DNA of 64,000 bases from positions 1-64,000 of the forward strand of contig JAHBVY010000001.1 of assembly GCA_019637265.1 (NCBI GenBank), written 5' to 3'. Made by a program: the position numbers and the translations under genes. Below, one piece after another: positions 27,221 through 48,084 of the stretch. Source of the stretch: Polyangiaceae bacterium (lineage in GTDB: Bacteria; Myxococcota_A; Polyangia; Polyangiales; Polyangiaceae). The notes below the pieces were generated by a model, which saw nothing but the letters and a program-made list of their open reading frames with translations, did not search any database and was not told where the DNA came from. How positions within the stretch are numbered: the stretch's first letter is position 1; each line of letters opens with the position of its first letter.

Positions 27221-28741
27221 GTGAACTCGGCGTTCCTGTGCGGCGTGATCGCGGCCTGGGCGCTGGCGAAGCTCGCCGTTGGGTCGTTCTTCATCCTGAC
27301 CTACGCGCAGCGCCGGCGCGACGCGGAGTACCTGCTGTTCGGGCTCCTGTGCTTCGCGGTCGCCGTCGTCTCCGCGGGGATTTCTTTGGCGTATGGCGCC
27401 GATGGCTCCGCGAACTGGCAGTTCACCTCACGTTTGTCCCACACCGGCGCGATCGCGGCGGGCGCGCTCAACCTGCACTTCGTGGTGCGCTACACCCGCG
27501 CGCCGTACCTCGGCTGGGTCAAGCTGGCTTACGTGTTGGCGGCGCTCTTCACGGCGGTGAACCTGAGCGGCCACTGGTTCCAGCCAGGGACGGATCAGAC
27601 GCTCAGCTCGGAGGTGCTCGGGAAGGTGGTCACGCACCTGGTGGCGGAGCCGACTCCATTTGGTGCGGCGTTCTACCTCGTCACCACGCTGCAGCTCGGG
27701 TTCGGCTTCTGGCTGATCGGCGCGGTGTTCGCGCGGGGCCAGCGCGAGGCGGGCTGGGTGATGGTGGGCGCCAGCGTGCTGGTGCTCACCTTCGTCAACG
27801 ACGTGCTCCTGACGACCGGCACCATCCCCAGCGTGTACTTGGTGCCGGGCGGCTTCCTCATCTACGTGTTCTCCATCGGCGCCACGCTGCCGGTGCGCTA
27901 CCGGACGAAGGAGCAAGAGCTCGAGGCGGTGACGAGCGATCTCGCGGTCGCCGCGGAGGAGCTCCGCTCGTCTTACGTCGAGCTGCAGGTGGTGCAGGAC
28001 CAGCTGAGCGGCAAGGAGCAGCTGGCTCAGGTGGGGGAGCTGGCCGCGGCGATCGCGCACGAGGTGCGGAACCCGCTGGCGGTGATCGTCAACGCGTGCG
28101 CGAGCCTCCGCCGCCCTCAGCTGGCCGAGGACGATCGCACCATGCTGCTCGGCATCGTGGAGGAGGAGGCGGGCCGCCTCAATCGGCTGGTGACCGATCT
28201 GCTGCGCTTCGCTCGCCCGATGAAGGTGAACCGCTCACCGGTGGCGATGATGGCGCTGCTCCAGCGCGCCGAGGCGCGGCTCTCCGAGGGCGTGGAGCTC
28301 ACCCTCGACATCAGCGACGATCCCGAGGTCCAGACGCTCTGGGTGGACGCGGGGCTCTTGCCGCTGGTGTTCGAGAACCTGGTCTCCAACGCGTGCCAAG
28401 CGATGCCTAGCGGCGGGACGGTCCACATCAGCGCGGCGCTCGAGGCGGTGGGCGATCGCCACGAGGTGCGGATCACGCTCTCCGACTCGGGCCATGGCAT
28501 GGATGAAGACGTGATCGAGCGCGCCGTCGATCCGTTCTTCACCACGCGGCCGAGCGGCACGGGCCTCGGCCTGCCGATCGTGGAGCGCGTGATCAAGGGC
28601 CACGGTGGCAGCCTCGACATCGTGTCGCGCCCGGGTCACGGCACCGACGTCGTGCTCCGGCTCCCGGTGCGGCGTGAGGGGGAGGAGGAGTTCCCGCCGC
28701 GCTTGCAGCGGCTGATCGACGCGGCTAGGCGGAGGCCATGA
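27221..28741 (+). CDS. Membrane-bound sensor histidine kinase
   Basis: 506 residues, GTG start preceded by GCAGGG. The N-terminal ~225 residues hold about seven hydrophobic helices, resembling the 7TM sensor region of bacterial kinases. A coiled-coil stretch (EQELEAVTSDLAVAAEELRSSYVEL, partly) leads to a HisKA domain with the phosphorylated H280 in AIAHEVRNPLA, then a HATPase domain with N-box ENLVSNACQAM (385-395), G1 DSGHGM (422-427), F-box PFFTTRP and G2 GTGLGLPIV. All catalytic motifs are intact. HEVRNPL kinases of this form commonly pair with NtrC-type regulators, and such a regulator lies about 4 kb downstream. The stop codon overlaps the ATG of the DUF2804 gene (ATGA), so the two are translationally coupled. 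Confidence 0.9.
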   Translation: MNSAFLCGVIAAWALAKLAVGSFFILTYAQRRRDAEYLLFGLLCFAVAVVSAGISLAYGADGSANWQFTSRLSHTGAIAAGALNLHFVVRYTRAPYLGWVKLAYVLAALFTAVNLSGHWFQPGTDQTLSSEVLGKVVTHLVAEPTPFGAAFYLVTTLQLGFGFWLIGAVFARGQREAGWVMVGASVLVLTFVNDVLLTTGTIPSVYLVPGGFLIYVFSIGATLPVRYRTKEQELEAVTSDLAVAAEELRSSYVELQVVQDQLSGKEQLAQVGELAAAIAHEVRNPLAVIVNACASLRRPQLAEDDRTMLLGIVEEEAGRLNRLVTDLLRFARPMKVNRSPVAMMALLQRAEARLSEGVELTLDISDDPEVQTLWVDAGLLPLVFENLVSNACQAMPSGGTVHISAALEAVGDRHEVRITLSDSGHGMDEDVIERAVDPFFTTRPSGTGLGLPIVERVIKGHGGSLDIVSRPGHGTDVVLRLPVRREGEEEFPPRLQRLIDAARRRP

Positions 28742-31376: not shown

Positions 31377-31727
31377 ATGGCAAGGAGGCGGCGTTACTTG
31401 TTCGTCTGCACCAACCGTCGGCCGGATGACAGCCCGCGCGGATCTTGCGCGGTGAGCGGGGCCGTCGAGATCCACGCGGCGCTGAAGGAGCTCTTGCAGC
31501 GTCGCGGCCTCGCGCGCGTCGAGGTGAGGGCTTGTACCGCGAGCTGCCTCGACGTGTGCTGGGTGGGGCCCGTCATTCACGTCGCGCCGGATGACTACTT
31601 CTATGGCCGGGTCACCCTGGCTGACGTCCCGGGCATCGTGGACGCCCTCGAGCGCGGTGAGCGCTTGGAGCGCCTGGTGCTCAGCGAAACTGACTTCATC
31701 GACCCCTTGCGCCCGGAGGCCTCATGA
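31377..31727 (+). CDS. Thioredoxin-like [2Fe-2S] ferredoxin
   Basis: 116 residues from the ATG of MARRRRYLFVCTNRR; the longer frame upstream is unlike a protein. Cys pattern: C in FVCTNRR and again 13 residues later in RGSCAVSG, then RACTASCLDVC, which fits the cluster ligands of thioredoxin-fold [2Fe-2S] ferredoxins (shethna-type). DDYFYGRVTLADVPGIVDALERGE closes the fold, as in the NuoE-like C-terminal part. It is likely an electron carrier for a nearby enzyme. The ATG of the next gene overlaps its stop codon (ATGA), so it is coupled to the isochorismatase-like hydrolase. It is divergent from the HExxH gene. Confidence 0.85.
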   Translation: MARRRRYLFVCTNRRPDDSPRGSCAVSGAVEIHAALKELLQRRGLARVEVRACTASCLDVCWVGPVIHVAPDDYFYGRVTLADVPGIVDALERGERLERLVLSETDFIDPLRPEAS

Positions 31728-32287
31728 CTCAAGCGACCCCCATGGCCCGGCTCGTGCCGGAGGAGACGGCCATCGTCGTCGTCGACGTTCAGGAGCGGCT
31801 CGCCCGCGTGATGCCGGAGCCGCGCGTCCAGGCGGTGCTCCGCTCCGCGCGCATCTTGCTGCAAGGCGCGAAGCTGCTCGGCGCCAAGGCGCTCATCACC
31901 GAGCAGTACCCGCAGGGGCTCGGGCCCACGGTGGAGGGCGTGCTCGAGGCGGCGGAGGGCGCTCTGCGGCTCGAGAAGCGCTGCTTCAGCGCCTGGGATT
32001 TGGAGGCCTTCCAGACGGCGCTCGGCGCGCCTCGGGCGGTCATCGTGCTGGGGATGGAGACCCACGTCTGCGTGTTTCAGACGGTGCGCGATCTGGTGAA
32101 CGCTGGCTACGCGGTGCACGTCCCGGTGGACGGCGTGAGCTCCCGCCAGGACGATCACCGTGAGGCGGGCCTCCGTTCATGTGAGCGTGCGGGAGCGCTG
32201 CTCACCACCAGTGAGACGGTGGCCTTCGACTGGCTGCGCTACGCCGAGGGCGACGCCTTCAAGGCCTTGTCCCGCGCCATCCGCTGA
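31724..32287 (+). CDS. Isochorismatase family hydrolase
   Basis: 187 residues of the cysteine hydrolase (isochorismatase/nicotinamidase) superfamily. The catalytic triad is visible: Asp in VVVDVQERL, Lys in RLEKRCFSAW and Cys in METHVCVFQT, preceded by the non-proline cis-peptide segment VLGMETH. The length and lack of an aryl-carrier domain match the YcaC-like subgroup of unknown substrate. The ATG overlaps the ferredoxin stop (ATGA), indicating coupled translation. The specific substrate is not predictable; isochorismate or nicotinamide are not implied. Confidence 0.88.
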   Translation: MTQATPMARLVPEETAIVVVDVQERLARVMPEPRVQAVLRSARILLQGAKLLGAKALITEQYPQGLGPTVEGVLEAAEGALRLEKRCFSAWDLEAFQTALGAPRAVIVLGMETHVCVFQTVRDLVNAGYAVHVPVDGVSSRQDDHREAGLRSCERAGALLTTSETVAFDWLRYAEGDAFKALSRAIR

Positions 32288-32320
32288 GTCGTCTGTTTCA
32301 CTGACGAGCGGCGCCCCAAG

Positions 32321-32344
32321 TTTTTTTTGGGGGGGTTGGTCCAG
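32321..32344 (-). repeat. Dispersed CCAACCCCC/A8 motif, copy 4
   Basis: The plus strand reads T8 then a G7 run and TTGGTCC. It begins 33 bases after the hydrolase stop codon. Another GGGACCAACCCCC copy, without the A-run, is at 32547-32560. Confidence 0.6.
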
Positions 32345-32380
32345 GCGCGCGCCGCCGGGCGTCGCTGCAGGCGCTGCGTG

Positions 32381-32502
32381 GTTCCGTGGGGAAACGGTGG
32401 GTGGCACCTGGATGGCTCGAGTGTTTCCGTGTGGAAACATTGAGTGGTGCCTGTTGGTGATTGAGGCTGCGATTCCGTGGGGGGACGATGGGTGGCACCT
32501 GG
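32381..32502 (+). repeat. Three direct repeats with an internal palindrome
   Basis: Imperfect ~31-base copies start at 32381, 32423 and 32472. Each reads TTCCGTG.GG.AAC.. .TG.GTGG.(A/G)CCTG. The second contains the perfect inverted repeat GTTTCC-GTGT-GGAAAC; the first has a nearly perfect one. Spacings of 42 and 49 bases, and position upstream of the activator gene, suggest protein binding sites rather than a CRISPR array. Confidence 0.6.
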
Positions 32503-32642
32503 GGTGGGGCGCGCGGGGACTGTAGGGACGCTCGGTGGGCACCGGCGGGACCAACCCCCTGCCCTGACCGATGAAGCGCCGAGCGGGGTGGCGAAGGCCC
32601 GGTGTGCTGCGTACCGGTGCTTTCAGCCGGGCCTCATTGCTA

Positions 32643-32657
32643 AATCATTGAATGATT
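32643..32657. promoter_or_regulatory. AT-rich perfect palindrome upstream of the activator gene
   Basis: AATCATTGAATGATT is a perfect inverted repeat with 7-base arms and a 1-base centre, in a GC-poor island 66 bases before the NtrC-type gene start. It looks like a regulator binding site; the protein is unknown. Confidence 0.45.
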
Positions 32658-32722
32658 ACAATGGGTTATGGATTCGGCTGGCTTGGCTCGACGAATTGTC
32701 ACGGCGTGTCATAGTGTCACGC

Positions 32723-34129
<1,407 letters not shown>

Positions 34130-34273
34130 CGTGGCCGAGGGCTGCGGCGGGGCGATTTTGTCAATTTGGCACACTGAGCAGGTGTTTCAGGGGGTGGGTG
34201 ACAACCTGGCGGTTCGGGCGCGGGGGTAGGCCGCCAAACCCGCTGAATTTCAACGTGATTGGCCATTGACCGT

Positions 34274-34289
34274 TGGCACGGCTCTCGCT
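34274..34289 (+). promoter_or_regulatory. Sigma-54 (-24/-12) promoter of the gsp operon
   Basis: TTGGCACGGCTCTCGCTT spans the site (34273-34290). TTGGCACG matches the -24 element perfectly; GG (34275-34276) and GC (34287-34288) have the required 10-base spacing; only one base of the TTGCW -12 element differs (TCGCT). The predicted start of transcription is near 34300, about 30 bases before the gspC ATG. The neighbouring gene encodes a sigma-54 activator. Confidence 0.72.
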
Positions 34290-34330
34290 TTAACCCGGGT
34301 GCCCCCGGCTCTGGCCGCACCTGACCGCGT

Positions 34331-35317
34331 ATGTCCCTCGACACCCTCCTCAAGAAGCACTTCGGTAAGCTGGTGCTCGCGCTGCTCGCGGTGACCGCTT
34401 ACCTGCAAGCCGCTGGGACCAACCAGCTGCTCGGTGGGTGGCTGTTCGGGGCGCGCGCGGACGCGCTCGGCGCGCTGCCGAAGAAGTCGCCGGACGTGGG
34501 CGCGCTGAACCGACAGGCCACGAAGACGGCCAGCGCGGATCCCATCATCGAGCGCAACCCCTTCGACTCCGTCACGGGCCCGCTGAACGCGAAGCCGGTG
34601 GAGGAGTTCCCGGAGGAGGTGGGGCCCGTGGACACCAACCCGCTGACCGCGCCGGCGTGTGACGGCGTCACCGTGTCCATCATCACCGAGTCGCCCGATC
34701 CGCTGTGGTCGTTCGCGGCGCTGCGCGGCCCTTCGGATCCGGCGCCCAAGCTGCACCGGGTGGGCGACACCCTAGGCGACAAGACCGTGGCCTACATCGG
34801 GGTGAACCCCGCGTCGCGCAGCCCGTCCGTGTGGCTGGAGGCGGGCAACGCGCTCTGTCAGGTGCAGCTGTTCGGCACGCCGGATGCCCCACCCGCAGCG
34901 CGCCCCACCGCCACGCCCGACAAGAAGGCCGCGGCGGACTCAGCTAGGGCGGCCGCCGTACCTTCGGACATCGCGAACAAGATCAAGAAGGTCTCGGACA
35001 CAGAGTTCGAGGTGGACCGCTCGGTGGTCGACAAGATCCTCGCGGATCAAGCGGTGCTGATGAAGTCGGCGCGCATCGTGCCCGAGCAGAAGGACGGGAA
35101 GGTCGTCGGGATCCGCATGTTCGGGATCCGTGACGACACGCTGCTCGGCACGCTGGGCTTCCAGAACGGCGATCGGCTCGAGAGCATCAACGGCTTCGAC
35201 ATGACCTCCCCCGAGAAGGCGCTCGAGGCCTACGCCCGGCTCCGCACCGCCGGCAACCTCAAGGTCCAAATCAACCGCGGTGGCAAGCCCACCACAGTCG
35301 ACTTCCGCATCAAGTAG
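34331..35317 (+). CDS. gspC: Type II secretion inner-membrane protein GspC
   Basis: 328 residues. GspC links the inner-membrane platform to the secretin GspD in the periplasm. An N-terminal transmembrane helix (LVLALLAVTAYLQAAG, about 14-30) is followed by the periplasmic HR region, recognisable around NPFDS and VTVSIITESPDPLWSFAAL, a Pro/Ala-rich linker, and a C-terminal PDZ-like domain (RMFGIRDDTLLGTLGFQNGDRLESINGFDM split across strands). First gene of the secretion operon, 42 bases after the sigma-54 promoter. No strong Shine-Dalgarno is visible; the start rests on the transmembrane segment position. Confidence 0.92.
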   Translation: MSLDTLLKKHFGKLVLALLAVTAYLQAAGTNQLLGGWLFGARADALGALPKKSPDVGALNRQATKTASADPIIERNPFDSVTGPLNAKPVEEFPEEVGPVDTNPLTAPACDGVTVSIITESPDPLWSFAALRGPSDPAPKLHRVGDTLGDKTVAYIGVNPASRSPSVWLEAGNALCQVQLFGTPDAPPAARPTATPDKKAAADSARAAAVPSDIANKIKKVSDTEFEVDRSVVDKILADQAVLMKSARIVPEQKDGKVVGIRMFGIRDDTLLGTLGFQNGDRLESINGFDMTSPEKALEAYARLRTAGNLKVQINRGGKPTTVDFRIK

Positions 35318-35390: not shown

Positions 35391-38072
35391 GTGACATCGA
35401 ACCGAATAGCCCCCTCTGCTCCAGGCTCTGGAGAGCGCGGTCACCCGTCGACTTCCCACGCTGTGTCTTCGTCGGGCACTGTGTTTTCGTCAGGCGCCGT
35501 GCTCTCTGCGTTCTCGTCGCGGCCTGTGCTCTCGTCGCGGCTCGCGCGCTTCGCGCTCGCGGGGGTGAGCCTGGGGCTCTTGTCGCTGGTGAGCGTGGAC
35601 GCCAGCGCGCAGATCCGCGCCCAGCGCCGCCCCACCGCGACGCCCGCGCGGCCGCCGGCTGGGCCTCCTGCTCCGCCCACCACGCCGGGCGCTCCCGCGG
35701 CGGACGATCCGCCGGGCGCCGCCGCGCCGCCGCCGCGCTCGATGGACGCCATCGCGAAGGCGGTGGAGACGGAGTACCGCCCCAAGGGGATGGGGCACCT
35801 GGTGAAGTTCAACCTCCAGGACGCCGACTTGGCGGAGCTGGTGAACCACATCAGCGGGATGACGGGGCGGCGCTTCATCTACGGCGCCAAGGTGCGGCAG
35901 ATCAAGGCGACCGTGGTGTCCCCCACGCCGGTGACGCTGGCCGAGGCCTACGAGGCCTTCCTCAGCATCCTCGAGGCCAACGGCATGACGGTGGTTCCGC
36001 ACGGTCGCTTCTTGAAGATCGTCGACAGCGGCGGGATCTCCACGCAGCCAACGCCGATCTACTCGCGGGGGGCGCCGGTGCCCGGCACCGCGGGCTTCGT
36101 CACGCGCCTTTACCGTTTGCAGCACGTGTCGGCGGATGAGGTCGCGCAGCTGCTGATGAAGTTCAAGAGCAAGGAGGGGGACATCTCCACCTTCTCCGCC
36201 GGGCAGCTGCTCATCATCACCGACACCGGGGCCAACGTGCGCCGCATGATCCGCCTGATCGAGGAGGTGGATGTCGGCGGCGCGGGCACCAAGATGTGGA
36301 TCGAGCCAGTGCACTACGGCTCGGCCGCGGACATGGCCAAGCAGATCGGGGAGATCTTCGAGCTGTCTGGCCAGGGGGGCGCGGGGGGCTCCTCCGGGGG
36401 CTTGGGGAAAGTCACGGCAGATGACCAAACCAACTCGCTGGTGATCGTCGGTACGGAGGACGCTTACCTCCGGGTGCTCGAGTTCATGAAGCGGGTGGAC
36501 GTCGCGCCCGCCGCCGAGGGGAAGATCCACGTGCTCCCGCTGCAGCACGCGGTGGCGGACGAGCTGGCGGCGACGCTCACTCAGATGCTCGGTGGCACCT
36601 CGGCGGCCGCGGCGCGCCCGGGGACGGGCGGCGCTCGCACGGCGCCCGCGATGGCGCCCGGCGCGGCGGGGGAGGGCTCCTTCGAGGGTGAGGTGCGCGT
36701 CACCGCGGACGCCCCCACCAACTCGCTGATCATCACCTCGAGCGCGCGCGACTACGCGCAGCTTCGCATGGTGATCCAGAAGCTCGACATGCCGCGTCGC
36801 CAGGTGTTCATCGAGGCGGCGATCATGGACATCTCCGTTTCGCGCGGGACGCAGCTCGGCATCAACTACCACGGCGGCACCACCTTCACGGCGCGCGACA
36901 ACGACGACAGCGTGCTGTTCGGCGGCTTGAACCCGATCAACTCGGTGCTGCTCACCCCCGATCAGCTCCAAGGCTTCGCGGTGGGGGTCCGCGGCCCGGA
37001 GCTCGACGGCACCTCCAACCTGCTCGGCACTGGCATCAGCATCCCCGCCTTCGGTGTGGTGCTGAACGCGATCGCGACCAGCGGTGACACCAACGTGCTG
37101 GCGACGCCCCACATCATCGCCACCGACAACACCCCGGCGGAGATCAACATCGGGGAGAACATCCCGCTCCAGACCAACATCGGCGGCTTGGGGAACCTGG
37201 GCGCGCTGGCGGGCGCCAGCGGCTTCGGTGGGCTCGGCGCGTTGGGTGGCCTCGGCGGCTTCGGTGGCTTCAGCACCCCGCGCCAGGACGTGGGCACGAA
37301 GATCAAGATCACGCCGCACATCAACGACTCCGATCAGGTGCGGCTCGAGATCGAGGCGGAGGACAGCTCGCCCGGCGCGGCGGCGGGTGATCTCGGCGCC
37401 GTGAGCATCACGCGCCGCAACGCCAACACCACCTTGGTGGTGCGCGATCAGGAGACGGTGGTGATCGGTGGTCTGATGAAGGACTCCGAGCAGACCAGCA
37501 AGACGAAGATCCCGGTGCTCGGCGACCTGCCGGTGCTCGGCTTCCTGTTTCGTCGCAGCGAGACCAGCCTCCGTAAGAGCAACTTACTTTTGGTGCTGAC
37601 GCCCCACATCATCCACGATTCGCGCGATCTACGCGCCATCTTCCAGCGCAAGATGCAGGAGCGCCAAGAGTTCCTCGACCGTTACTTCGTCTTCGGCTCG
37701 AGCAGCTGGAGCCCGCCGCGTGACTGGACGCGCACCAACGGCTTGGTGGAGGACATCCGCCAGAGCTACCTGGAGGCGGAGGAGCGCCGCCAGCTGGAGG
37801 AGCAGCTGGAGCGTCCGAAGGAGCGCCCCGAGCATGAGCCGTCGCCGCCCATCGACATGCCGCAGGTGGTGAAGTCGGGCGGCGGCGCGGGCGCCTCACC
37901 CACGCCCGCCACGCCCAGGCGGCCGACCACGCCGCGCCGCCCGCAGCAGCGCACGCCTCAGCGTCAGGGCGGGGGCGGCTCGTCCCAGCTCGACGCCCCG
38001 TCGGCGCCAGGCAGCGCGGCTCCCCGCATCAACCCGATGGCGCGCAGCGTGGCCGTCGATCGCACGGAGTGA
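35391..38072 (+). CDS. gspD: Type II secretion outer-membrane secretin GspD
   Basis: Up to 893 residues. It forms the outer-membrane channel. N0/N1 domains start near VKFNLQDADLAELVNHISGMTG, repeated secretin short domains follow (LYRLQHVSADEVAQLL, VLPLQHAVADELAATL, PTNSLIITSSARDY), then the secretin core with the typical VPVLGDLPVLGFLFRR signature and NLLLVLTPHII. A Gly/Ala-rich insertion is present in the gate region. The C-terminal ~130 residues are a Pro/Arg-rich extension. The start is uncertain: the GTG at 35391 gives an unusual Ser-rich region before a signal peptide that ends near DASA; GTGs at 35481, 35499 and 35526 would give a more ordinary signal sequence. Its stop is overlapped by the gspE start region. 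Confidence 0.93.
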   Translation: MTSNRIAPSAPGSGERGHPSTSHAVSSSGTVFSSGAVLSAFSSRPVLSSRLARFALAGVSLGLLSLVSVDASAQIRAQRRPTATPARPPAGPPAPPTTPGAPAADDPPGAAAPPPRSMDAIAKAVETEYRPKGMGHLVKFNLQDADLAELVNHISGMTGRRFIYGAKVRQIKATVVSPTPVTLAEAYEAFLSILEANGMTVVPHGRFLKIVDSGGISTQPTPIYSRGAPVPGTAGFVTRLYRLQHVSADEVAQLLMKFKSKEGDISTFSAGQLLIITDTGANVRRMIRLIEEVDVGGAGTKMWIEPVHYGSAADMAKQIGEIFELSGQGGAGGSSGGLGKVTADDQTNSLVIVGTEDAYLRVLEFMKRVDVAPAAEGKIHVLPLQHAVADELAATLTQMLGGTSAAAARPGTGGARTAPAMAPGAAGEGSFEGEVRVTADAPTNSLIITSSARDYAQLRMVIQKLDMPRRQVFIEAAIMDISVSRGTQLGINYHGGTTFTARDNDDSVLFGGLNPINSVLLTPDQLQGFAVGVRGPELDGTSNLLGTGISIPAFGVVLNAIATSGDTNVLATPHIIATDNTPAEINIGENIPLQTNIGGLGNLGALAGASGFGGLGALGGLGGFGGFSTPRQDVGTKIKITPHINDSDQVRLEIEAEDSSPGAAAGDLGAVSITRRNANTTLVVRDQETVVIGGLMKDSEQTSKTKIPVLGDLPVLGFLFRRSETSLRKSNLLLVLTPHIIHDSRDLRAIFQRKMQERQEFLDRYFVFGSSSWSPPRDWTRTNGLVEDIRQSYLEAEERRQLEEQLERPKERPEHEPSPPIDMPQVVKSGGGAGASPTPATPRRPTTPRRPQQRTPQRQGGGGSSQLDAPSAPGSAAPRINPMARSVAVDRTE

Positions 38073-38074
38073 CG

Positions 38075-39841
38075 ATGCGAGAGCAGCGCGCCTTGGGTCA
38101 GGTGTTCGTGCGGCGCGGGGTGCTCACCCCCGAGGTGCTGGAGGGTGTGCTCGCCCAGCAAGCGGAGAAGGCGCAGCCGCTCACCGAGCTCTTGATTCAG
38201 TCGGAGCTGGCCACCGACGCCAGCATCGCGCAGGCGCTCGCGGTGGAGTGTGGGCTCGGCTACCTGGAGAAGGTGGACGCCGACGCGATCGACGCCAGCG
38301 TGGCGATGCGGTTGCCCATCGGGTACGCGCGGAGCCACCGCTTGCTCGTGACGGGGGAGGACGAGACGACGGTGCACGTGGTGTGCGCCGATCCGCTCGA
38401 CACTGCCGCCCTGGATGACATCCGCGCCACCTTCGGCAAGCGGGTGTCGGCTCGGGTGGCGCCGGCGCCGGTGATCGTGGACGCCATCAACCGCGTGTTC
38501 GAGCGCGGCGCCACCTCCGCGGAGCTCAAGAGCGAAGAGTCGTCAGGGGATGACGATGAAGTCGACATCCTCGACTCCGATGACGACGCCCCGATCATCC
38601 GCTGGGTGAACAGCCTGTTTTCCCAGGCGGTGCGCGAGCGCGCGAGCGATATCCACATCGAGCCGGAAGATCGAGAGGTGGTGGTGCGCTTCCGGGTGGA
38701 TGGTCAGCTGCATGTATCCAAGCGCGCGAGCCGGCAGTTCATGAGCGCCGTGGTCGCGCGCGTGAAGATCATGGCGGGGCTGAACATCGCCGAGAAGCGC
38801 CTGCCGCAAGATGGCCGCATCAGCTTGAAGATCGCCGGGCGTGGGATCGACGTGCGCGTCTCCACCATCCCCACCAGCCGCGAGCACGAGCGGGTGGTGA
38901 TGCGCCTCTTGCACAAGACGAACACGCTGCTCGGGCTAGATGAGCTGGGCTTCTCCCCGCGCGATCTTTACCTGATGCACGAGCTGATCGAGCGCCCCAA
39001 CGGCATTATCTTGGTCACCGGCCCCACCGGCAGCGGTAAGACGACCACGCTGTACGCGTGCCTCAACCGCATCAATCGCCCCAACATCAACATCCTCACC
39101 GCGGAGGACCCGGTCGAGTACGAGCTGGGCGGCATTCATCAGGTGCACGTCCAACCGAAGATCGGCCTCACCTTCGCGAGCGCGATGCGCGCCTTCCTCC
39201 GCCAAGACCCGGACGTGATCATGGTCGGTGAGATCCGCGATTTGGAGACCGCCGAGATCGCGATCCAGGCGTCGATGACTGGCCACTTGGTGCTCTCCAC
39301 CATCCACACCAACGACGCGGCGGGCGCCTTCACGCGCCTCATCGACATGAACGTCGACAACTTCAAGGTGCGCTCCACGGTGATCGGCCTCTTGGCGCAG
39401 CGCCTCGTCAGGATCCTGTGCGATGAGTGCAAGGAGCCGTATGAGGCCACGCCGCACGAGCTGGAGCAGCTGGGCATCGATCCGGCGGCCACGGAGCGAC
39501 GGCTCAACCGCAAGGTGGGCAGCGCGTATCGGGCGCCCGGCGTGGAGTACGTGCCCCCAGGCTGGCTGGGCCCGGAGATGCCGACCTTCCACCGCGCGGT
39601 GGGCTGTGATGCGTGTAATGGCAGCGGCTACATCGGGCGTCGCGGCATCTATGAGCTGCTGATGGCCGACGACGACGTGGGTCAGCTGGTGATGGCCAAG
39701 TCAGATGCCCAGAGCATCAAGCGCGCGGCGATCGCCAATGGCATGGACTCCCTGCGTGACGACGGCGCGCGCAAGGTGCTGGCCGGGCGCACCACGGTGG
39801 AGGCCGTGCTCGCGGCCACTCAAGAGGACTCGTACGACTGA
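38075..39841 (+). CDS. gspE: Type II secretion ATPase GspE
   Basis: 588 residues from the ATG at 38075, which has GGAG five bases upstream; a GTG at 38069 overlapping the gspD stop is the alternative. An N-terminal MshEN-type domain is followed by an ATPase core: Walker A GPTGSGKT (316-323), Asp box, Walker B DVIMVGEIRD and His box STIHTND. The tetracysteine zinc motif of GspE is present as CDECKEP ... GCDACNGSGYIGRRG. GspE powers pseudopilus assembly from the cytoplasm. Its TGA overlaps the ATG of gspF (TGATG), so translation is coupled. Confidence 0.96.
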   Translation: MREQRALGQVFVRRGVLTPEVLEGVLAQQAEKAQPLTELLIQSELATDASIAQALAVECGLGYLEKVDADAIDASVAMRLPIGYARSHRLLVTGEDETTVHVVCADPLDTAALDDIRATFGKRVSARVAPAPVIVDAINRVFERGATSAELKSEESSGDDDEVDILDSDDDAPIIRWVNSLFSQAVRERASDIHIEPEDREVVVRFRVDGQLHVSKRASRQFMSAVVARVKIMAGLNIAEKRLPQDGRISLKIAGRGIDVRVSTIPTSREHERVVMRLLHKTNTLLGLDELGFSPRDLYLMHELIERPNGIILVTGPTGSGKTTTLYACLNRINRPNINILTAEDPVEYELGGIHQVHVQPKIGLTFASAMRAFLRQDPDVIMVGEIRDLETAEIAIQASMTGHLVLSTIHTNDAAGAFTRLIDMNVDNFKVRSTVIGLLAQRLVRILCDECKEPYEATPHELEQLGIDPAATERRLNRKVGSAYRAPGVEYVPPGWLGPEMPTFHRAVGCDACNGSGYIGRRGIYELLMADDDVGQLVMAKSDAQSIKRAAIANGMDSLRDDGARKVLAGRTTVEAVLAATQEDSYD

Positions 39842-41067
39842 TGGCCGTCTACGCCTACCGCGGGATCCAGTCGGCGACCGGGAAGCCGACCAAGGGCTTC
39901 AAGGACGCCGACAACCTGAAGGCGCTGCGCGGCGCGCTGCGTCGCGAGGGGATCCTGCTGACGGAGGCGACGGAGGAGGCGGAGCGCAAGCAACGCGCGA
40001 AGAAGGACCTCAACCTCTTCGCGGTGTTTCAGCGGCCCAGCACCAGCGACATCGCCGTGATGACGCGCCAGCTCGCCACCTTGGTGCGCGCCGGCGTGCC
40101 GCTGGTGGAGTCGATCGGCGCCCTGAGCGAGCAGGTGGAGAACGAGCAGCTGGTGATGATCCTCACCGCGGTGCGTGAGAACTTGAACGAGGGCACCAGC
40201 TTCGCCAAGAGCCTCTCGGTACACGCCAAGGTGTTCCCGCCGCTCTACATCAACATGGTGGAGGCGGGGGAGGCCTCTGGCACCTTGGAGGCAGTCCTAG
40301 AACGCCTGGCTGACTTCATGGAGAGCCAGGCGCGGCTCAAGGGCAAGGTGGCTGGCGCGCTCGCCTACCCGATCCTGATGGCGCTGGTGGGGACCTTGCT
40401 GGTCGGCTTCTTGATGGTGGCGGTGGTGCCCAAGGTGACGGCCATCTTCGACAGCTTGGGCCAGCAGCTGCCTTGGTACACGGAGCTGCTCATCTTCGTG
40501 TCGTCCATCGTCGGCGGCTATTGGTGGCTGATTTTGGGGTTGGGGTTTGCCGGCACCTACCTGTTCCGGCGCTGGAAAAAAACCGAGAAGGGTAAGCTTA
40601 AGTGGGACAAGTTCCTGCTTCGAGTCCCGCTGTTCGGGCGCCTCAACCTGCTGGTCGCGGTGGCGCGCTTCAGCCGCACTTTGTCCACCTTGCTCGCCAG
40701 CGGCGTGCCGCTCCTCACGGCCATGAGCATCGTGCGGAGCGTGCTGGAGAACGCGCTGCTCGAGCAGGTGGTGACCACCGCGATCGGCTCCATCCGTGAG
40801 GGTGAGAGCATCTCGGTGCCGCTCAAGAAGAGCGGCGAGTTCCCGCCGATGGTGACCCACATGATCAGCGTCGGGGAGCGCTCGGGTCAGCTCGAGCAGA
40901 TGCTCGAGAACGTGAGCCGCGCGTACGAGGCCGACGTGGAGGTGCGGGTGCAGGCGCTGACGAGCCTGCTCGAGCCGATGATGATCGTGATCATGGGCGG
41001 GCTGGTGGGCTTCATCACGATGGCCATCTTGATGCCCCTCATCCAGATGAATGACATGGTGCAATGA
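39841..41067 (+). CDS. gspF: Type II secretion platform protein GspF
   Basis: 408 residues. GspF is the polytopic inner-membrane platform protein. Two homologous cytoplasmic domains (around 70-170 and 270-370) are each followed by hydrophobic helices (VGTLLVGFLMVAVVPKV; LIFVSSIVGGYWWLILGLGFAG; MMIVIMGGLVGFITMAILMP). Conserved segments include MTRQLATLVRAGVPLVESI, VEAGEASGTLEAVLERLADF and VGERSGQLEQMLENVSR. The start overlaps the gspE stop. The stop is followed three bases later by the next start codon. Confidence 0.96.
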   Translation: MAVYAYRGIQSATGKPTKGFKDADNLKALRGALRREGILLTEATEEAERKQRAKKDLNLFAVFQRPSTSDIAVMTRQLATLVRAGVPLVESIGALSEQVENEQLVMILTAVRENLNEGTSFAKSLSVHAKVFPPLYINMVEAGEASGTLEAVLERLADFMESQARLKGKVAGALAYPILMALVGTLLVGFLMVAVVPKVTAIFDSLGQQLPWYTELLIFVSSIVGGYWWLILGLGFAGTYLFRRWKKTEKGKLKWDKFLLRVPLFGRLNLLVAVARFSRTLSTLLASGVPLLTAMSIVRSVLENALLEQVVTTAIGSIREGESISVPLKKSGEFPPMVTHMISVGERSGQLEQMLENVSRAYEADVEVRVQALTSLLEPMMIVIMGGLVGFITMAILMPLIQMNDMVQ

Positions 41068-41070
41068 CTC

Positions 41071-41487
41071 ATGCTGCGGCGCCGCCGACTCCTGGAGCAG
41101 GACATCTTCTTCCCGTGGGAGGGGAGGGGTGCGCTGCGTCGTCGGCTGCGGGTGGGGCGGCTGCGCCGCGCGCTGGTGCTGATGGGCCTGGTCTTGGTGG
41201 TGCTGGTCATCGCGCTGCGCGAGCGGCAGCGCGCCGGGGTGCGGCAGACGCGGGCGACGCTGCTCGACACGCGGCGGCTGGTGGAGGCCTACCTCGCCGA
41301 TCATCAGGGAGGCTGCCCAGCGAGCCTCGCCGAGCTGGCGCGCCACGCGAAGGTCGCGAAGGTGCCGCAGGACGCTTGGGGGCGCGACTTGAGGCTGATT
41401 TGTCCGGGGCGCCGCGAAGGGTCCCGTTACGAGCTGATGAGCGACGGCCCCGACGGCTTGCCCGGCGGGCTGGATCGCATCGAGTGA
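41071..41487 (+). CDS. GspG-like protein without a prepilin motif
   Basis: 138 residues inserted in the operon between gspF and gspG. The C-terminal half resembles the GspG pseudopilin core: LVEAYLADHQGGCPASLAEL, then PQDAWGRDLRLICPGRREG and a final SDGPDGLPGGLDRIE, corresponding to the GspG 'DPWG...S.GPDG....DDI' end. The N-terminus, however, is a basic stretch and a single transmembrane helix (LVLMGLVLVVLVIAL, about 36-50), with no G/F-T-L-x-E prepilin peptidase site. It would therefore be an anchored, not processed, relative of a pseudopilin. Start codon is three bases after gspF. It may be a degenerate duplicate or a dedicated accessory; see findings. Confidence 0.8.
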   Translation: MLRRRRLLEQDIFFPWEGRGALRRRLRVGRLRRALVLMGLVLVVLVIALRERQRAGVRQTRATLLDTRRLVEAYLADHQGGCPASLAELARHAKVAKVPQDAWGRDLRLICPGRREGSRYELMSDGPDGLPGGLDRIE

Positions 41488-41513
41488 GGGCAGGCACGGG
41501 GGCCTGCCCCTAC
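41488..41513. repeat. REP-like palindrome, copy C
   Basis: GGGCAGGC and GCCTGCCC form inverted arms around ACGGGG, followed by CTAC. It immediately follows the stop codon of the GspG-like gene, inside the secretion operon. It resembles the REP elements at 21228 and 23763 in ending with CCCCTAC but has different arms. Confidence 0.65.
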
Positions 41514-41540
41514 GAACACCGCATGATGGAGCACGAACCG

Positions 41541-42005
41541 ATGAAGAACCTCTCGAATCTACCCCCCTTGACGATCCTGGCGCGCGCCCTGACGCGGCGG
41601 CGCGGCCCGGGCGTGCGCGCCCGCGCCGCCGCGCGCGGCGTGACGCTGTTCGAGGTGCTGATCGTGGTCGCCATCCTCGCGATGGTCGCCGGTGGCGTGG
41701 CGGTGTTCGCGCTGCCGAAGTTCCGCGAGGCGCAGATCAAGACCGCGGAGACCAGCGCGCGGGTGATCCGCACGGCGGTGCAGCAGTGGCAGCAGGTGAA
41801 CAACGAGGTCTCCTGCCCGACCATGAGCCAGCTGGTGCAGGAGAAGCACATCGACTCCGCCACCAACACCGATGACCCTTGGGGTGAGGCCTTCATCCTC
41901 AGCTGCACTGACGATGAGGTGGTGGTGAGCTCCAAGGGCCCCGACAAGAAGAAGGGCACCGCGGATGACATCCGGGTGCCGAAGGGCAGCGCCGCCGAGG
42001 AGTGA
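41541..42005 (+). CDS. gspG: Type II secretion major pseudopilin GspG
   Basis: 154 residues from the ATG with GGAG eight bases upstream; ATGs at 41523 and 41526 are possible. The prepilin cleavage site is RG|VTLFEVLIVVAI, with the essential Glu at +5; residue +1 is Val rather than the usual Phe/Met. The leader of about 33 residues is longer than most. The core ends in DDPWGEAFILSC...SSKGPDKKKGTADDIRVPK, the calcium-site region of GspG. It is the major subunit of the pseudopilus. Stop overlaps the gspH start region. Confidence 0.94.
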   Translation: MKNLSNLPPLTILARALTRRRGPGVRARAAARGVTLFEVLIVVAILAMVAGGVAVFALPKFREAQIKTAETSARVIRTAVQQWQQVNNEVSCPTMSQLVQEKHIDSATNTDDPWGEAFILSCTDDEVVVSSKGPDKKKGTADDIRVPKGSAAEE

Positions 42006-42805
42006 TGTCACGAGCCGCGCCGCACTCTGCCCCTCAGCCTGCCTCTAGTCAGTCCACCGGACCGGACGGGAGGGCTGTGCGCGGCGCGCGCTCGGGGGCG
42101 CTGCGCGGCGCTGCGAGCGGCAAGGGCGCTGCGCGCGGCCTCACCTTGTTCGAGGTGCTGCTGGTGGTGGCGCTGATCGGGGTGATGACCGGCGGGGTGC
42201 TGCTCGGCAGCGGCGCGCTGGGTGGCGCCAAGCTCCGCAGCTCGGCCACGCTGATCGCCGCTGGGGTGCGCTTGGGGCTGAGTCGTGCCAACGCCACCGG
42301 GCGCCCCACGCGGATGGTGTTCGACTTCGAAGAGCGCCGCGTGATCTTGGAGGAGAGCGCGACGCGGATGCTCCGCGAGAAGGACGATGGAGAGTCCACC
42401 GGCGCCGGCGCGGATCCCGCGACCGAGGCGGAGCGAGCGGCTCGCGAGTACGCGGAGGGGCTGGTGAAGGCGCCGCGCGCGCCGCGCGCGCGCTTCAGGC
42501 CCATGAAGGCGTTCGGCTTCGACGGGGACGACGGTGAGGCGGGGCGCGGCCTCGAGTCGGGCATCGTGCTGCGCCAGGTCCAGACCGAGCACGATGGAGA
42601 GCCGCGCACCCAGGGGCGCGCTTACCTCTACTTCTTCCCGGGGGGCGGTACGGAGCGCGCCGTGATCCAGCTCCAACAGGGTAAAAAGGACGATGGGTTG
42701 ACGGTGCTGGTCAACGGCCTCACCGGCGCCACGCGCATCGAGCGCGGCTGGGTGGAGCTGGAGCCGCCGCGTACGGATGACGACCTCGGGGAGCGCTCCG
42801 AGTGA
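42005..42805 (+). CDS. gspH: Type II secretion minor pseudopilin GspH
   Basis: 266 residues. A 45-residue basic, Ala/Ser-rich leader precedes the cleavage site RG|LTLFEVLLVVALIG with Glu at +5. The globular part starts with SSATLIAAGVRLGLSRANATGRPTRMVFDFEERRVILEE, a typical GspH/FimT pattern, and includes an Arg/Ala insertion around residues 120-160. Minor pseudopilins cap or stabilise the pseudopilus. The ATG overlaps the gspG stop codon (TGATG); the GTG at 42002 is an alternative. Its own TGA overlaps the gspI GTG. Confidence 0.88.
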   Translation: MSRAAPHSAPQPASSQSTGPDGRAVRGARSGALRGAASGKGAARGLTLFEVLLVVALIGVMTGGVLLGSGALGGAKLRSSATLIAAGVRLGLSRANATGRPTRMVFDFEERRVILEESATRMLREKDDGESTGAGADPATEAERAAREYAEGLVKAPRAPRARFRPMKAFGFDGDDGEAGRGLESGIVLRQVQTEHDGEPRTQGRAYLYFFPGGGTERAVIQLQQGKKDDGLTVLVNGLTGATRIERGWVELEPPRTDDDLGERSE

Positions 42806-43821
42806 CGCGCGCGCTCGCGAGGGACGGCTCGCGTCGCGCAGCATCCTCTAGCTGCGCGGTGCCTTCGCGTGCAGCGTCTCCGCGCCGCGCGGTGCCTTCG
42901 CGCGCAGCGTCTTCGCGCCGCGCGGTGCCTTCGCGCGCAGCGTCTCCGCGCCGCGCGGTGCCTTCGCGCCGCGCGGTGCCTTCGGCGGAGCGTGGCTTCA
43001 CGCTGCTCGAGGTGTTGGTCGCCGTCGCGATCCTCGGTCTGGGGCTCAGCGTGATTTTGTCGGCTCAGACGGGTCTGTTTCAGAACGCCACCCGCGCCGA
43101 GAACCTCAGCGTCGCCCCCGGGCTCATCCGCTGCAAGATGAACGAGCTCGAGCTCGACCTGCTGCGGGACGGTTACTCCGTGATGGATCAGCACGAGTCG
43201 GGGCCGTGCTGTGAGGAGGACACCAACCGCCGCTTCAGCTGTGATTGGTCCGTTGAGCTGATCAAGCTCCCGGAGCCGCGAGACATCGGCTTCGGCAGCG
43301 GCGACGGGGGCCTCGACATCGGCGGCTCGAGCGGTGGGCTCGGCGCCCTCGGCGCGCTGGCGCAAGCCGACACCTTGGGCGCCTCCGGGCTCGGTCAGCA
43401 AGACTTGGGCGGCGTCGCCAGCATGCTCACCCAGAGCGGCGGCAACCCCATCGACGGCGTGGCCAGCATCGTCATGGGGATGGTCTATCCGCAGATCAAG
43501 CCGATGTTCGAGGCGAGCATCCGCAAGATCACGGTGAAGGTGCGTTGGAAAGAGGGCAAGGTCGAGCGGGACCTCAGCGCGGTGCAGTACGTCGCCAGCC
43601 CGCAGCAGGGCGGGTTCGATCCGAACGCCGCCGCGGGGCTCGAGGGCCTGGAGGGCGTGCTCGGGGGCAGCGGCCTCCAGGGCGGCGGCCTCCAGGGCGG
43701 CGGCCTTCCAGGGGGTCTCCAGGGTGGCGGTCTGCCAGGTAGGGGCCTGCAGCAGGGCCTCCCAGGCGGTGGCCTGCCGAGCCCCAGCCCTCGGCCCAAC
43801 TTGCCGGGAGGTGGGAGGTGA
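42802..43821 (+). CDS. gspI: Type II secretion minor pseudopilin GspI with repeat-built leader
   Basis: 339 residues. The cleavage site ERG|FTLLEVLVAVAILGLG, with Glu +5, lies after an extraordinary 65-residue leader of Arg, Ala, Pro and Ser that is built from an 11-residue unit (RAVPSRAASPR) repeated about three times. The pilin core then shows NLSVAPGLIRCKMNELELDLL and a long Gly-rich region (GSSGGLGALGALAQ...). The C-terminal ~45 residues are a repeating GGGLQ/GGGLP stretch. GTG start overlapping the gspH stop (GTGA). A downstream start inside the repeat (for example GTG codons in GCGGTGCC are out of frame) was not found, so the long leader seems genuine. Minor pseudopilin of the tip complex. 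Confidence 0.88.
   Translation: MTRALARDGSRRAASSSCAVPSRAASPRRAVPSRAASSRRAVPSRAASPRRAVPSRRAVPSAERGFTLLEVLVAVAILGLGLSVILSAQTGLFQNATRAENLSVAPGLIRCKMNELELDLLRDGYSVMDQHESGPCCEEDTNRRFSCDWSVELIKLPEPRDIGFGSGDGGLDIGGSSGGLGALGALAQADTLGASGLGQQDLGGVASMLTQSGGNPIDGVASIVMGMVYPQIKPMFEASIRKITVKVRWKEGKVERDLSAVQYVASPQQGGFDPNAAAGLEGLEGVLGGSGLQGGGLQGGGLPGGLQGGGLPGRGLQQGLPGGGLPSPSPRPNLPGGGR
42854..42984. repeat. 33-bp minisatellite in the gspI leader
   Basis: Three near-identical 33-base copies (42854-42886, 42887-42919, 42920-42952) followed by truncated copies of 18 and 14 bases, all beginning GCGCGGTGCCTTCG. The period is a multiple of three, so the reading frame is kept. Confidence 0.92.
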
Positions 43822-44531
43822 GGGCGCGGCGCGGCTTCACGCTGCTCGAGCTGCTGGTGGCGGTCACCATCCTCGCGTTGGTGAGCTTGCTCATCTACGG
43901 CGCGTTCTCCGGGCTCCGCTCGACGCGCGACGGGGTGGGTCAGGTGAGCGGGCGTTATCACGAGGGGCGGAGCGCCATGCAGCGCATCGCGCGGGAGCTT
44001 CAGGGCTCCTTCCTGTCTTTCAATCGCCCCATCGATGCCTCCTTGATGGTGCGCCAGACGGCGTTCATCGGTCACCGCGGCTCACCCGCGGATCGGGTGG
44101 ATTTCACCTCCTTCGCCCACCGGCGCCTCGATCGCGACTCCCATGAGTCCGATCAGTGTGAGCTCTCTTACTTCGGCTCGCCCGATCCCAAGCAGCGTGG
44201 GGTGACGGACTTGGTGCGCCGCGTGTCCCCCTACATCGACCTCGAGCCGGATCGCGGCGGGCGGGTGCAGGTGCTGGCGACGGACATCGATCTGTTCCAG
44301 CTCGAGTACCTGGACCCTTACACCGGCCGCTGGCAGGAGCAGTGGGACACCACCCAGGCGCTCGGTCAGAAAGACAGACTACCGCTTCAGGTGCGGGTCA
44401 CCCTGGTGCTCAACGGGGGGCGCCGCGCGGCGCGCGGGCGCGCGAAGGGCGCGATCACCTTCGACACCAAGGTGAAGATCCCGATCCAGACCCCGATGGA
44501 CTTCGCGGGGGTGGGGGCGCTGGTCCAGTGA
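43818..44531 (+). CDS. gspJ: Type II secretion minor pseudopilin GspJ
   Basis: 237 residues. A normal six-residue leader MRARRG is followed by |FTLLELLVAVTILALVSLLIYG, Glu at +5. The GTG start has GGGAGG directly upstream and overlaps the gspI stop. Conserved GspJ-like segments are SAMQRIARELQGSFLSFNRP and LEYLDPYTGRWQEQWDT, followed by LPLQVRVTLVLNGGRR. GspJ belongs to the tip complex with GspI and GspK. The stop codon overlaps the gspK start (GTGA). Confidence 0.93.
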   Translation: MRARRGFTLLELLVAVTILALVSLLIYGAFSGLRSTRDGVGQVSGRYHEGRSAMQRIARELQGSFLSFNRPIDASLMVRQTAFIGHRGSPADRVDFTSFAHRRLDRDSHESDQCELSYFGSPDPKQRGVTDLVRRVSPYIDLEPDRGGRVQVLATDIDLFQLEYLDPYTGRWQEQWDTTQALGQKDRLPLQVRVTLVLNGGRRAARGRAKGAITFDTKVKIPIQTPMDFAGVGALVQ

Positions 44532-46051: not shown

Positions 46052-47521
46052 ATGGCCAGAATCATAGGGATCGACATCCGAGACACGCACGTGCGCGCCG
46101 CGCTGCTGCGCACGCGTTTCCGTGTGGTCGAGCTGGAGCGGCTCTCGGAGGTGCAGGTCACGAGCGGCGTGGAGGCGGCGCTCGCGGAGGCGCTGAAGCC
46201 GATGCTCCACCTGGGTGAGCACCTGGCGGTGGCGATCGATGGTCAGCGCGCCTTCGTGCACACCCTCAAGATCCCGAGCACGGCGCTGCGTCAGCTGGGG
46301 GACGTGCTCCCCTTCGAGCTGGAGGCGGAGATCCCCATCGACATCGACGAGGTGGTCTACGACTACCGGCTGCCGAAGGGCAGGGCGTCGGGGCCGGTGA
46401 TGGACGTGCTCACCGCGGCGGCGCGTGAGGCGGACGTGCGCGCGGCGATCCAGCTGGTGAAGGGGGTCACGCGTCGCGAGCCGGAGCGGGTGAGCCTCGG
46501 CGCGCTGCCGCTCGCCAACCTCGGGTCGTTGGCGCCGGCGGCGCTCACGACGCGGCCGGTGGCGCTGATCGACTTCGGCGGCGCTCACACCGACTTCGTG
46601 GTGGTGGACCAGGGCCAGGTGGTGTTCGCGCGCACGCTCTCGCAGGGCGTGGGGGTGCTGCCCGCTGGGGCGGAGTCGCTCGCTGCGGAGCTGAGGCAGA
46701 GCCTCACGGCGTGGCTCGCCAAGGGCGGGCAGGGGGTGGAGGTGGTGTACCTCACCGGGAGCCTCGCGCGCGGCGCCGCGGAGTATTTGGCCTACCACCT
46801 GTCGACCCCGGTGGAGGTGCTGCCGCCCCTCGACTTGAAGCTGGCCGATACCGCGCAGGGGGCGGACGTCCCGCGCTTCGCGCGCGCGATCGGCATCGCG
46901 CTCGGGCTGCGCAGCGGCGCTCAAGATCTGAACCTGCGCCAGGGTGGCGGCGGCTTCCAGTCGAGCTTCGGCGCGCTCAGGGAGCGCGCGCCGGTGCTCT
47001 CGGGGCTCGTGGCGTCGATCTTCGTGTTCTTCTTGTTCTCGAGCTGGGCCGAGCTCCGCGCGCTCGATCGCGATCACGAGGCGCTCGAAGCGGCGCTCAG
47101 CAAGCTGAGCCTCCACGTGCTCGGTGAAGAGACGACCGATCCAGAGCGGGTGTCCGAGCTGCTCGACAAAGGGCCAGGTAAGCAGGACAGCGATCCGATG
47201 CCGCGCTTCGACGCGTTCGACGTGATCGTGGAGATCTCGAAGGCGGTGCCGCACACGGTGACCCACGACATCGAGGACTTCGACGTCCAGCGCAGCAAGG
47301 TGAAGATGAACGGCGTGGTGGGCTCCACGGACGAGGCCCAGAACATCGCCACGAAGCTGAAGGAGCACAGCTGCCTCCACGACGTGAAGGTCTCCAAGTT
47401 CACCCAGGTGGTGAACAGTGAGCGCCAGAAATACGTGCTCGAGTTCGACGCCCTGTGCCCGGAGGATGGCGGCGGCAAGAAGGCGGTCGCCAAGGCCGAT
47501 CCATCGGGGGGTGGTAAGTGA
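46052..47521 (+). CDS. gspL: Type II secretion protein GspL (PilM/PilN-like)
   Basis: 489 residues. The cytoplasmic part (1-~300) is actin-like and PilM-related: IIGIDIRDTHVRAALL, VLPFELEAEIPIDIDEVVYDYR and PVALIDFGGAHTDFVVVDQGQ. A transmembrane helix (LVASIFVFFLFSSWAEL) near 330 leads to a PilN-like periplasmic domain ending in VVNSERQKYVLEFDALC. In this fused form the protein recruits GspE. ATG start with GAGGACG just upstream. The gspM GTG overlaps its stop. Confidence 0.92.
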   Translation: MARIIGIDIRDTHVRAALLRTRFRVVELERLSEVQVTSGVEAALAEALKPMLHLGEHLAVAIDGQRAFVHTLKIPSTALRQLGDVLPFELEAEIPIDIDEVVYDYRLPKGRASGPVMDVLTAAAREADVRAAIQLVKGVTRREPERVSLGALPLANLGSLAPAALTTRPVALIDFGGAHTDFVVVDQGQVVFARTLSQGVGVLPAGAESLAAELRQSLTAWLAKGGQGVEVVYLTGSLARGAAEYLAYHLSTPVEVLPPLDLKLADTAQGADVPRFARAIGIALGLRSGAQDLNLRQGGGGFQSSFGALRERAPVLSGLVASIFVFFLFSSWAELRALDRDHEALEAALSKLSLHVLGEETTDPERVSELLDKGPGKQDSDPMPRFDAFDVIVEISKAVPHTVTHDIEDFDVQRSKVKMNGVVGSTDEAQNIATKLKEHSCLHDVKVSKFTQVVNSERQKYVLEFDALCPEDGGGKKAVAKADPSGGGK

Positions 47522-48084
47522 GCCTGGCGGAGCGCTTCGAGCGCCTGGAACCGCGGGAGCGCCAGCTCGCCCTGGTGCTGCTCGCCGTGTTCGTGCTGCT
47601 GTTCGTGGTCGGGATCCCGGTGCTGGTCCAGAGCTCGGTGTCGAGCGCGCGCGAGGAGAATGAGAACTTGCGCTACGCGCTGAGCTCCATCCGTGAGGGC
47701 CAAGCGAAGTACGCCGCGCGCTCCATGGGGCAGCAGGCGGTGGTGGAGCGCTACGCCAAGACCACCCCCGCGCTGGCCGGCTTCTTGGACAACCTCGCGC
47801 GCCAGAACAAAATCGAGATCGCCGAGAGCCAAGATCAGGCGACGGTTCCACACGGGAAAGTCTACGAGGAGCGCTCCACCCGCATCACCCTGCGCAAGGT
47901 GGGGATGCTGGCGCTCTCGAAGTTCATGGAGGCCATCGAGGTCTCGGGTTACCCCGTGAAGATCAGCCGCCTCAACATCAGGCGGAGCGGCTCACAGCCC
48001 GATCAGTACGACGTGTCGATGACGGTGTCGGCCTTCGACCGTAAAGACCCGAAGGCCACGCCCGCCAAGGGGGACGACGGATGA
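47518..48084 (+). CDS. gspM: Type II secretion protein GspM
   Basis: 188 residues with one transmembrane helix (LALVLLAVFVLLFVVGIPVLV, ~18-38) after a short cytoplasmic head LAERFERLEPRERQ, then a coiled segment and a ferredoxin-like periplasmic domain (KFMEAIEVSGYPVKISRLNIRR split by turns). GspM stabilises GspL at the inner membrane. The GTG overlaps the gspL stop, and its own stop overlaps the gspN ATG (ATGA). Confidence 0.9.
   Translation: MSLAERFERLEPRERQLALVLLAVFVLLFVVGIPVLVQSSVSSAREENENLRYALSSIREGQAKYAARSMGQQAVVERYAKTTPALAGFLDNLARQNKIEIAESQDQATVPHGKVYEERSTRITLRKVGMLALSKFMEAIEVSGYPVKISRLNIRRSGSQPDQYDVSMTVSAFDRKDPKATPAKGDDG

Follow-up and report, generated by a model that had tools for sequence, protein, structure and literature searches.

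What switches on the type II secretion system (T2SS) of this Polyangiaceae bacterium? In the 64,000-nt stretch of DNA analysed here (the window), a candidate -24/-12 element lies just ahead of gspC, and the first-pass annotation proposed sigma-54-dependent transcription of gspC under the NtrC-type activator encoded next to it. Conservation, helically spaced upstream palindromes and co-occurrence across relatives support that proposal at the level of sequence. With a probability of roughly 0.87, sigma-54 and the neighbouring activator would control gspC to gspN through two enhancer palindromes (UAS1 and UAS2), together with a gene for a MYXO-CTERM-like protein. The comparisons below establish the sequence architecture, its conservation and its co-occurrence with the activator gene.

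The promoter, the operon and the activator gene

The putative promoter, TGGCACGGCTCTCGCT, is at 34274-34289 on the forward strand, in the gap that separates gspC from the activator gene (32723-34129). It agrees with the consensus TGGCACGN4TTGCW in 11 of 12 positions, the single mismatch being a C in place of the second T of TTGC, and its GG (34275-34276) and GC (34287-34288) are separated by exactly 10 bases; the single mismatch and the spacing are as first annotated. The close upstream position also stands, although 41 bases rather than 42 separate the site from the gspC start codon (ATG at 34331). From sigma-54 promoter geometry, transcription is predicted to start at approximately 34300, some 12 nt past the -12 GC. 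An rpoN gene is present in the genome, and the predicted fold of the leader (34300-34340) has no unusual structure.

Taken by itself such a match means little. In the whole 5.7 Mb genome there are 53 matches with at most one mismatch, against 31 for a reversed control pattern, a less than twofold enrichment, so a lone match is little proof; in the window, the four matches with at most two mismatches are fewer than the 10.35 expected from shuffles. Judging the site on the window alone was rejected because one-mismatch sites are common. As a predicted promoter, it far exceeds chance only by way of its conservation.

Downstream, gspC to gspN form a single co-oriented, mostly overlapping operon on the forward strand, ending at 49091, with the gene set and order of a type II secretion operon. 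Five genes score above curated cut-offs: gspC (34331-35317; NCBIfam GspC_delta, 355 bits, cut-off 150), the secretin gene gspD (35391-38072; TIGR02517, 479.5 bits, cut-off 351), the ATPase gene gspE (38069-39841; TIGR02533, 638.9 bits, cut-off 630), gspF (39841-41067; TIGR02120, 459 bits, cut-off 424) and gspN (48081-49091; GspN, 157.7 bits, cut-off 50). Matches from G to M are weaker. An ORF at 41064-42005 holds gspG, with the pseudopilin in its 3' half and the true start internal (TIGR01710 on residues 191-301, 29 bits, below cut-off), and a small GspG-like protein is encoded at 41071-41487 (Pfam T2SSG, 29.5 bits, cut-off 21). The NCBIfam matches to gspH (42002-42805), gspI (42802-43821), gspJ (43818-44531) and gspK (in an ORF ending at 45982) are mostly below cut-off; gspL (46052-47521) has PilM/GspL matches, and gspM (47518-48084) is just under its threshold (T2SSM, 27.5 bits, cut-off 27.8).

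The activator gene, also on the forward strand, encodes an NtrC-family response regulator with receiver (REC), sigma-54 AAA+ and Fis-type HTH domains (Pfam Response_reg, Sigma54_activat, AAA_lid_14 and HTH_8, all above cut-off). With the GAFTGA, GESGTGKE and GTLFLDEIGE motifs and the receiver residues D33, D34, D77, T105 and K127 in place, the protein has the Walker A and B motifs, GAFTGA loop, Fis-type HTH and phospho-acceptor Asp of an NtrC-family bacterial enhancer-binding protein (EBP), and the residues for phosphorylation are retained; the earlier description of an intact sigma-54 activator adjoining gspC thus holds. Assignments to PrsR (TIGR02915; 384.6 bits against a curated cut-off of 502.6), AtoC (460.9 against 714), NtrC (431.2 against 558.6) and ZraR (420.7 against 760) were all rejected. 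The ortholog is single-copy in 93 of 108 family genomes, at 68-100% identity, while other paralogs reach at most about 53%; the window genome itself has further NtrC-type paralogs of about 50% identity, and a search of a named genome collection with the activator returned mostly paralogs. Residues of the HTH region and recognition helix are nearly invariant across ten orthologs.

In relatives, the neighbourhood of the activator holds no conserved histidine kinase. The window has one at 27221-28741 whose sensor region is of 7TM type and which weakly resembles NCBIfam T2SS_HK (111.7 of 450 bits); it is a possible partner of the activator, though one that finds no support in the relatives, where no kinase is a conserved neighbour. 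An isochorismatase-family gene upstream of the activator (31724-32287) keeps its place next to it in many relatives, including some in which gspC and the activator are unlinked.

Conservation of the promoter and the paired palindromes

A GspC search covered 108 Polyangiaceae genomes, and 90 gspC loci were read. The predicted promoter is found at 80 of these, usually 28-90 nt before gspC and with the family consensus TGGCAYGNNNCTCGCT. The opposite strand has it at 4 of the 90, and shuffles at a rate of 2.5%. Where an ortholog of the activator is adjacent, the promoter is always present (52/52). The first-pass annotation had named loss of the GG/GC pair in relatives that keep the operon as evidence that would count against it; retention at 80 of 90 loci is the opposite outcome.

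The intergenic regions of the family also share two palindromes, YGNCANNNTGNCR. In the window these are UAS1, TGTCAATTTGGCA, at 34159-34171, and UAS2, TGACAACCTGGCG, 40 bp away at 34199-34211, both predicted activator-binding sites. The spacing within the pair is 40-42 bp in all 57 pairs from relatives (36 at 40, 20 at 41, one at 42), and the motif occurs in shuffled sequence at a rate of 0.025 per 300 nt. At gspC the distance from the palindromes to the -24 element downstream of them is about 57-130 bp and changes in helical steps: relative to the promoter, the starts of UAS1 cluster at -97/-98, -105 to -110, -114 to -119 and -128 to -131, with almost none between. With one value per genus, the roughly 10.5-bp periodicity of these distances exceeds that of a smooth null, a simple one that ignores phylogeny. 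The paired palindromes upstream of the promoter are thus expected, from their position, to be enhancer sites, in the fixed helical relation to the promoter associated with sigma-54. Tandem repeats such as TGCCAATCTGCCAATC (G093:C11; G080:C499 and C104) fit the pair pattern through repetition and are probably unrelated.

Promoter and palindromes together track the activator. Among the genomes with a gspC locus read, they occur there in 76 of 79 with an activator ortholog and in one of six without (Fisher p ~1e-5, without phylogeny correction, the genome counts being non-independent because of shared ancestry). This count scores as ortholog-positive one genome in which a contig end cuts the activator (G097) and one with a frame-broken ortholog (G021). 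The full architecture was seen in 39 of 43 genera. Among gspC loci with no adjacent activator, 17 have a palindrome pair, nine a single palindrome and three none, and nearly all of the genomes concerned have the ortholog elsewhere. Two exceptions run in opposite directions: a fragmented assembly (G004) keeps the sites with no ortholog detected, and another genome (G043) has the ortholog but a gspC without promoter and palindromes. G021 was rejected as an activator-less exception on finding the broken ortholog 3.7 kb upstream of gspC (L351:1533-2911). It is readable in four pieces in different frames, either a frame-shifted gene or the product of sequencing errors, and the promoter and palindromes downstream of it are intact.

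Outside the Polyangiaceae, activator orthologs occur throughout the phylum, and most of 40 non-family regions fetched have gspC and/or gspD just downstream of the activator. Of 27 activator-gspC or activator-gspD intervals among these, which served as a held-out test, 22 contain the exact palindrome. A sigma-54-like site, frequently AGGCACGNNNGTTGCT, is present in 19, counting matches at a minimum of 10 of the 12 positions, although some distant members of the class have no recognisable site. A scan of other Myxococcota for the same site and neighbour, suggested in the first-pass annotation, thus finds the arrangement recurring before gspC, as in Anaeromyxobacter oryzae, where gspCDEF follow the activator (59% identity), with a site matching at 12/12 positions and a palindrome pair 40 bp apart.

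A probable second target, a proposed mechanism and its rivals

When the family was scanned with the palindrome pair alone, promoters of the same layout were found before second copies of gspC and before genes for signal-peptide proteins of about 400-450 aa. The latter resemble NCBIfam MXAN_2561 (NF045522), "MYXO-CTERM-anchored protein", at scores under its threshold (81.1 bits in the window genome and 55-75 bits in four relatives, cut-off 150); against MYXO-CTERM itself (TIGR03901) the protein of the window genome scores 18.1 bits, under the cut-off of 20. The tail shows a Gly-rich segment, a Cys, a hydrophobic stretch and an Arg-rich end. The reverse comparison, starting from 30 loci selected solely with the protein HMM, agrees: a sigma-54 site is present in 24, mostly 24-38 nt ahead of the start codon, and the palindrome accompanies it in 21. 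Of the six loci lacking a site, four are truncated by a nearby contig end.

In the window genome the candidate second target is at C12:719022 (L354:2523-3590), with TGGCACGCTCTGTGCT 30 nt before the ATG, a perfect palindrome at -251 and, at -221, an imperfect copy that matches in 7/8 positions; the two are 30 bp apart and further out than at gspC. The encoded protein has an fn3 domain and the MYXO-CTERM-like tail, and a second signal-peptide ORF follows. The surface display of MYXO-CTERM proteins in Myxococcus, TraA among them, depends on the T2SS (PMC11980579), which makes co-regulation of machine and second target plausible; by the same comparison the second target is probably T2SS cargo. 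Thirteen further sigma-54-like sites in the genome were read and rejected as members of the regulon, 12 having no palindrome within 180 nt and one a single motif. Just two sites in the genome were found to match at all 12/12 positions (C15:423307 and C15:487427; L001 and L002). They too have no palindrome, and one stands before a 435-aa ORF whose start is lipoprotein-like.

In the mechanism proposed, sigma-54 RNA polymerase would transcribe gspC to gspN from the 34274-34289 promoter, held closed there until the activator acts. A kinase would phosphorylate the activator on its receiver domain; the activator, assembled into a higher oligomer, would then occupy UAS1 and UAS2 from one side of the helix and reach the promoter by looping, and its AAA+ domain would open the promoter. 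This protein would also switch on at least one more gene, that for the signal-peptide surface protein with the MYXO-CTERM-like tail, so that the secretion machine and its probable cargo would be made together. A broader claim, that a single-copy sigma-54 activator has ruled the T2SS across the Myxococcota since early in the phylum, with a fixed double enhancer and coupling of the machine to a cognate MYXO-CTERM-type surface protein, seems somewhat favoured.

The palindromes and promoter might instead serve another activator from the same family, one like Nla28 for example, the neighbouring gene being a passenger. This is unlikely, given that the published Nla28 half-site, CT(C/G)CG(C/G)AG (PMC7910581), is unlike the palindromes here, that the ortholog's presence tracks that of the sites even with the genes unlinked, and that activator-gspC adjacency recurs across the phylum, although a T2SS operon of Myxococcus xanthus has been named as a candidate for Nla28 control, with a putative sigma-54 site (PMC9765219), and the window genome does have other candidates in its NtrC-type paralogs.

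Control by the neighbouring protein probably extends to its own gene. A UAS-like palindrome, TGTCATAGTGTCA, stands just before the activator start codon (32707-32719) and another, TGACATGCTGGCG, 21 bp from it within the first codons (32728-32740); a similar motif is near the activator start in 22 of 33 relatives, and in two distant genomes (L330 and L331) the activator has a sigma-54 site and a palindrome of its own. Self-control, of either sign, is therefore likely, with the start-codon palindromes as a possible operator. Their placement looks like that of a repressor site, and the conserved elements as a whole could be read as an operator through which the regulator mainly represses the operon; the palindromes at gspC have enhancer geometry, however, and the GAFTGA loop, needed for sigma-54 contact, is intact, which makes such a reading very improbable. 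Hardly credible at all is a chance -24/-12 match with the operon on a housekeeping promoter, since for all the weak genome-wide enrichment of lone one-mismatch sites, this one is conserved at a set position with linked palindrome pairs, and a scan of 32280-34400 covering some promoter types found no sigma-70-like site.

Comparison with known systems

PilR-pilA is a sigma-54 circuit for type IV pili. In both cases an EBP gene sits immediately ahead of the sigma-54 promoter that serves a machine of the type IV filament class; the present one differs in that a whole T2SS operon would be the target, under a paralogous regulator of about 50% identity. The same genome has a PilR-pilA-like unit, with a sigma-54-like site at C1:576198-576213 (L006), a type IV prepilin-like gene 29 nt beyond it and an NtrC-type regulator just upstream (C1:573693-575021).

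The first-pass annotation's view that gsp operons are usually under other regulators needs qualifying, as the Myxococcus xanthus T2SS operon MXAN2511 is already a candidate for sigma-54/Nla28 dependence (PMC9765219). Sigma-54/EBP control of a myxobacterial T2SS operon has thus been proposed before, but with another half-site, a weak promoter match (GGGCGCG-N4-TTGCA) and a setting in starvation development (PMC9765219; PMC7910581). The work on MYXO-CTERM/myxosortase export through the T2SS (PMC11980579) deals with sorting, not regulation. No description of the activator, motif or regulon was found in the open-access literature searched, a coverage mostly outside subscription journals; the mechanism is an ordinary one, and the target set and phylum-wide conservation are apparently new.

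If the broader, phylum-wide claim is correct, this would be the first described regulon of a secretion machine and sorting-tag cargo in these bacteria. The T2SS places proteins on the myxobacterial surface (TraA, kin recognition) and exports enzymes, so its switch bears on interactions with kin and prey. The data supply a testable regulator, a predicted binding motif and two target classes, and an uncharacterised surface-protein family gains a functional link to the T2SS.

The closest precedent is the control of PEP-CTERM genes by PrsK/PrsR and RpoN, found through matching phylogenetic profiles, with RpoN dependence shown for pepA in Aquincola (PMC1569441; PMC9850573). Both circuits combine an NtrC-family REC-AAA+-Fis regulator, sigma-54 with an upstream motif, and C-terminally tagged exported proteins. 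Unlike PrsR, the gspC activator scores below the PrsR family cut-off and has no linked kinase, and its predicted targets include the secretion machine itself (gspC to gspN) as well as a MYXO-CTERM-like protein. The parallel suggests that sigma-54 control of sorting-tag proteins may have arisen more than once.
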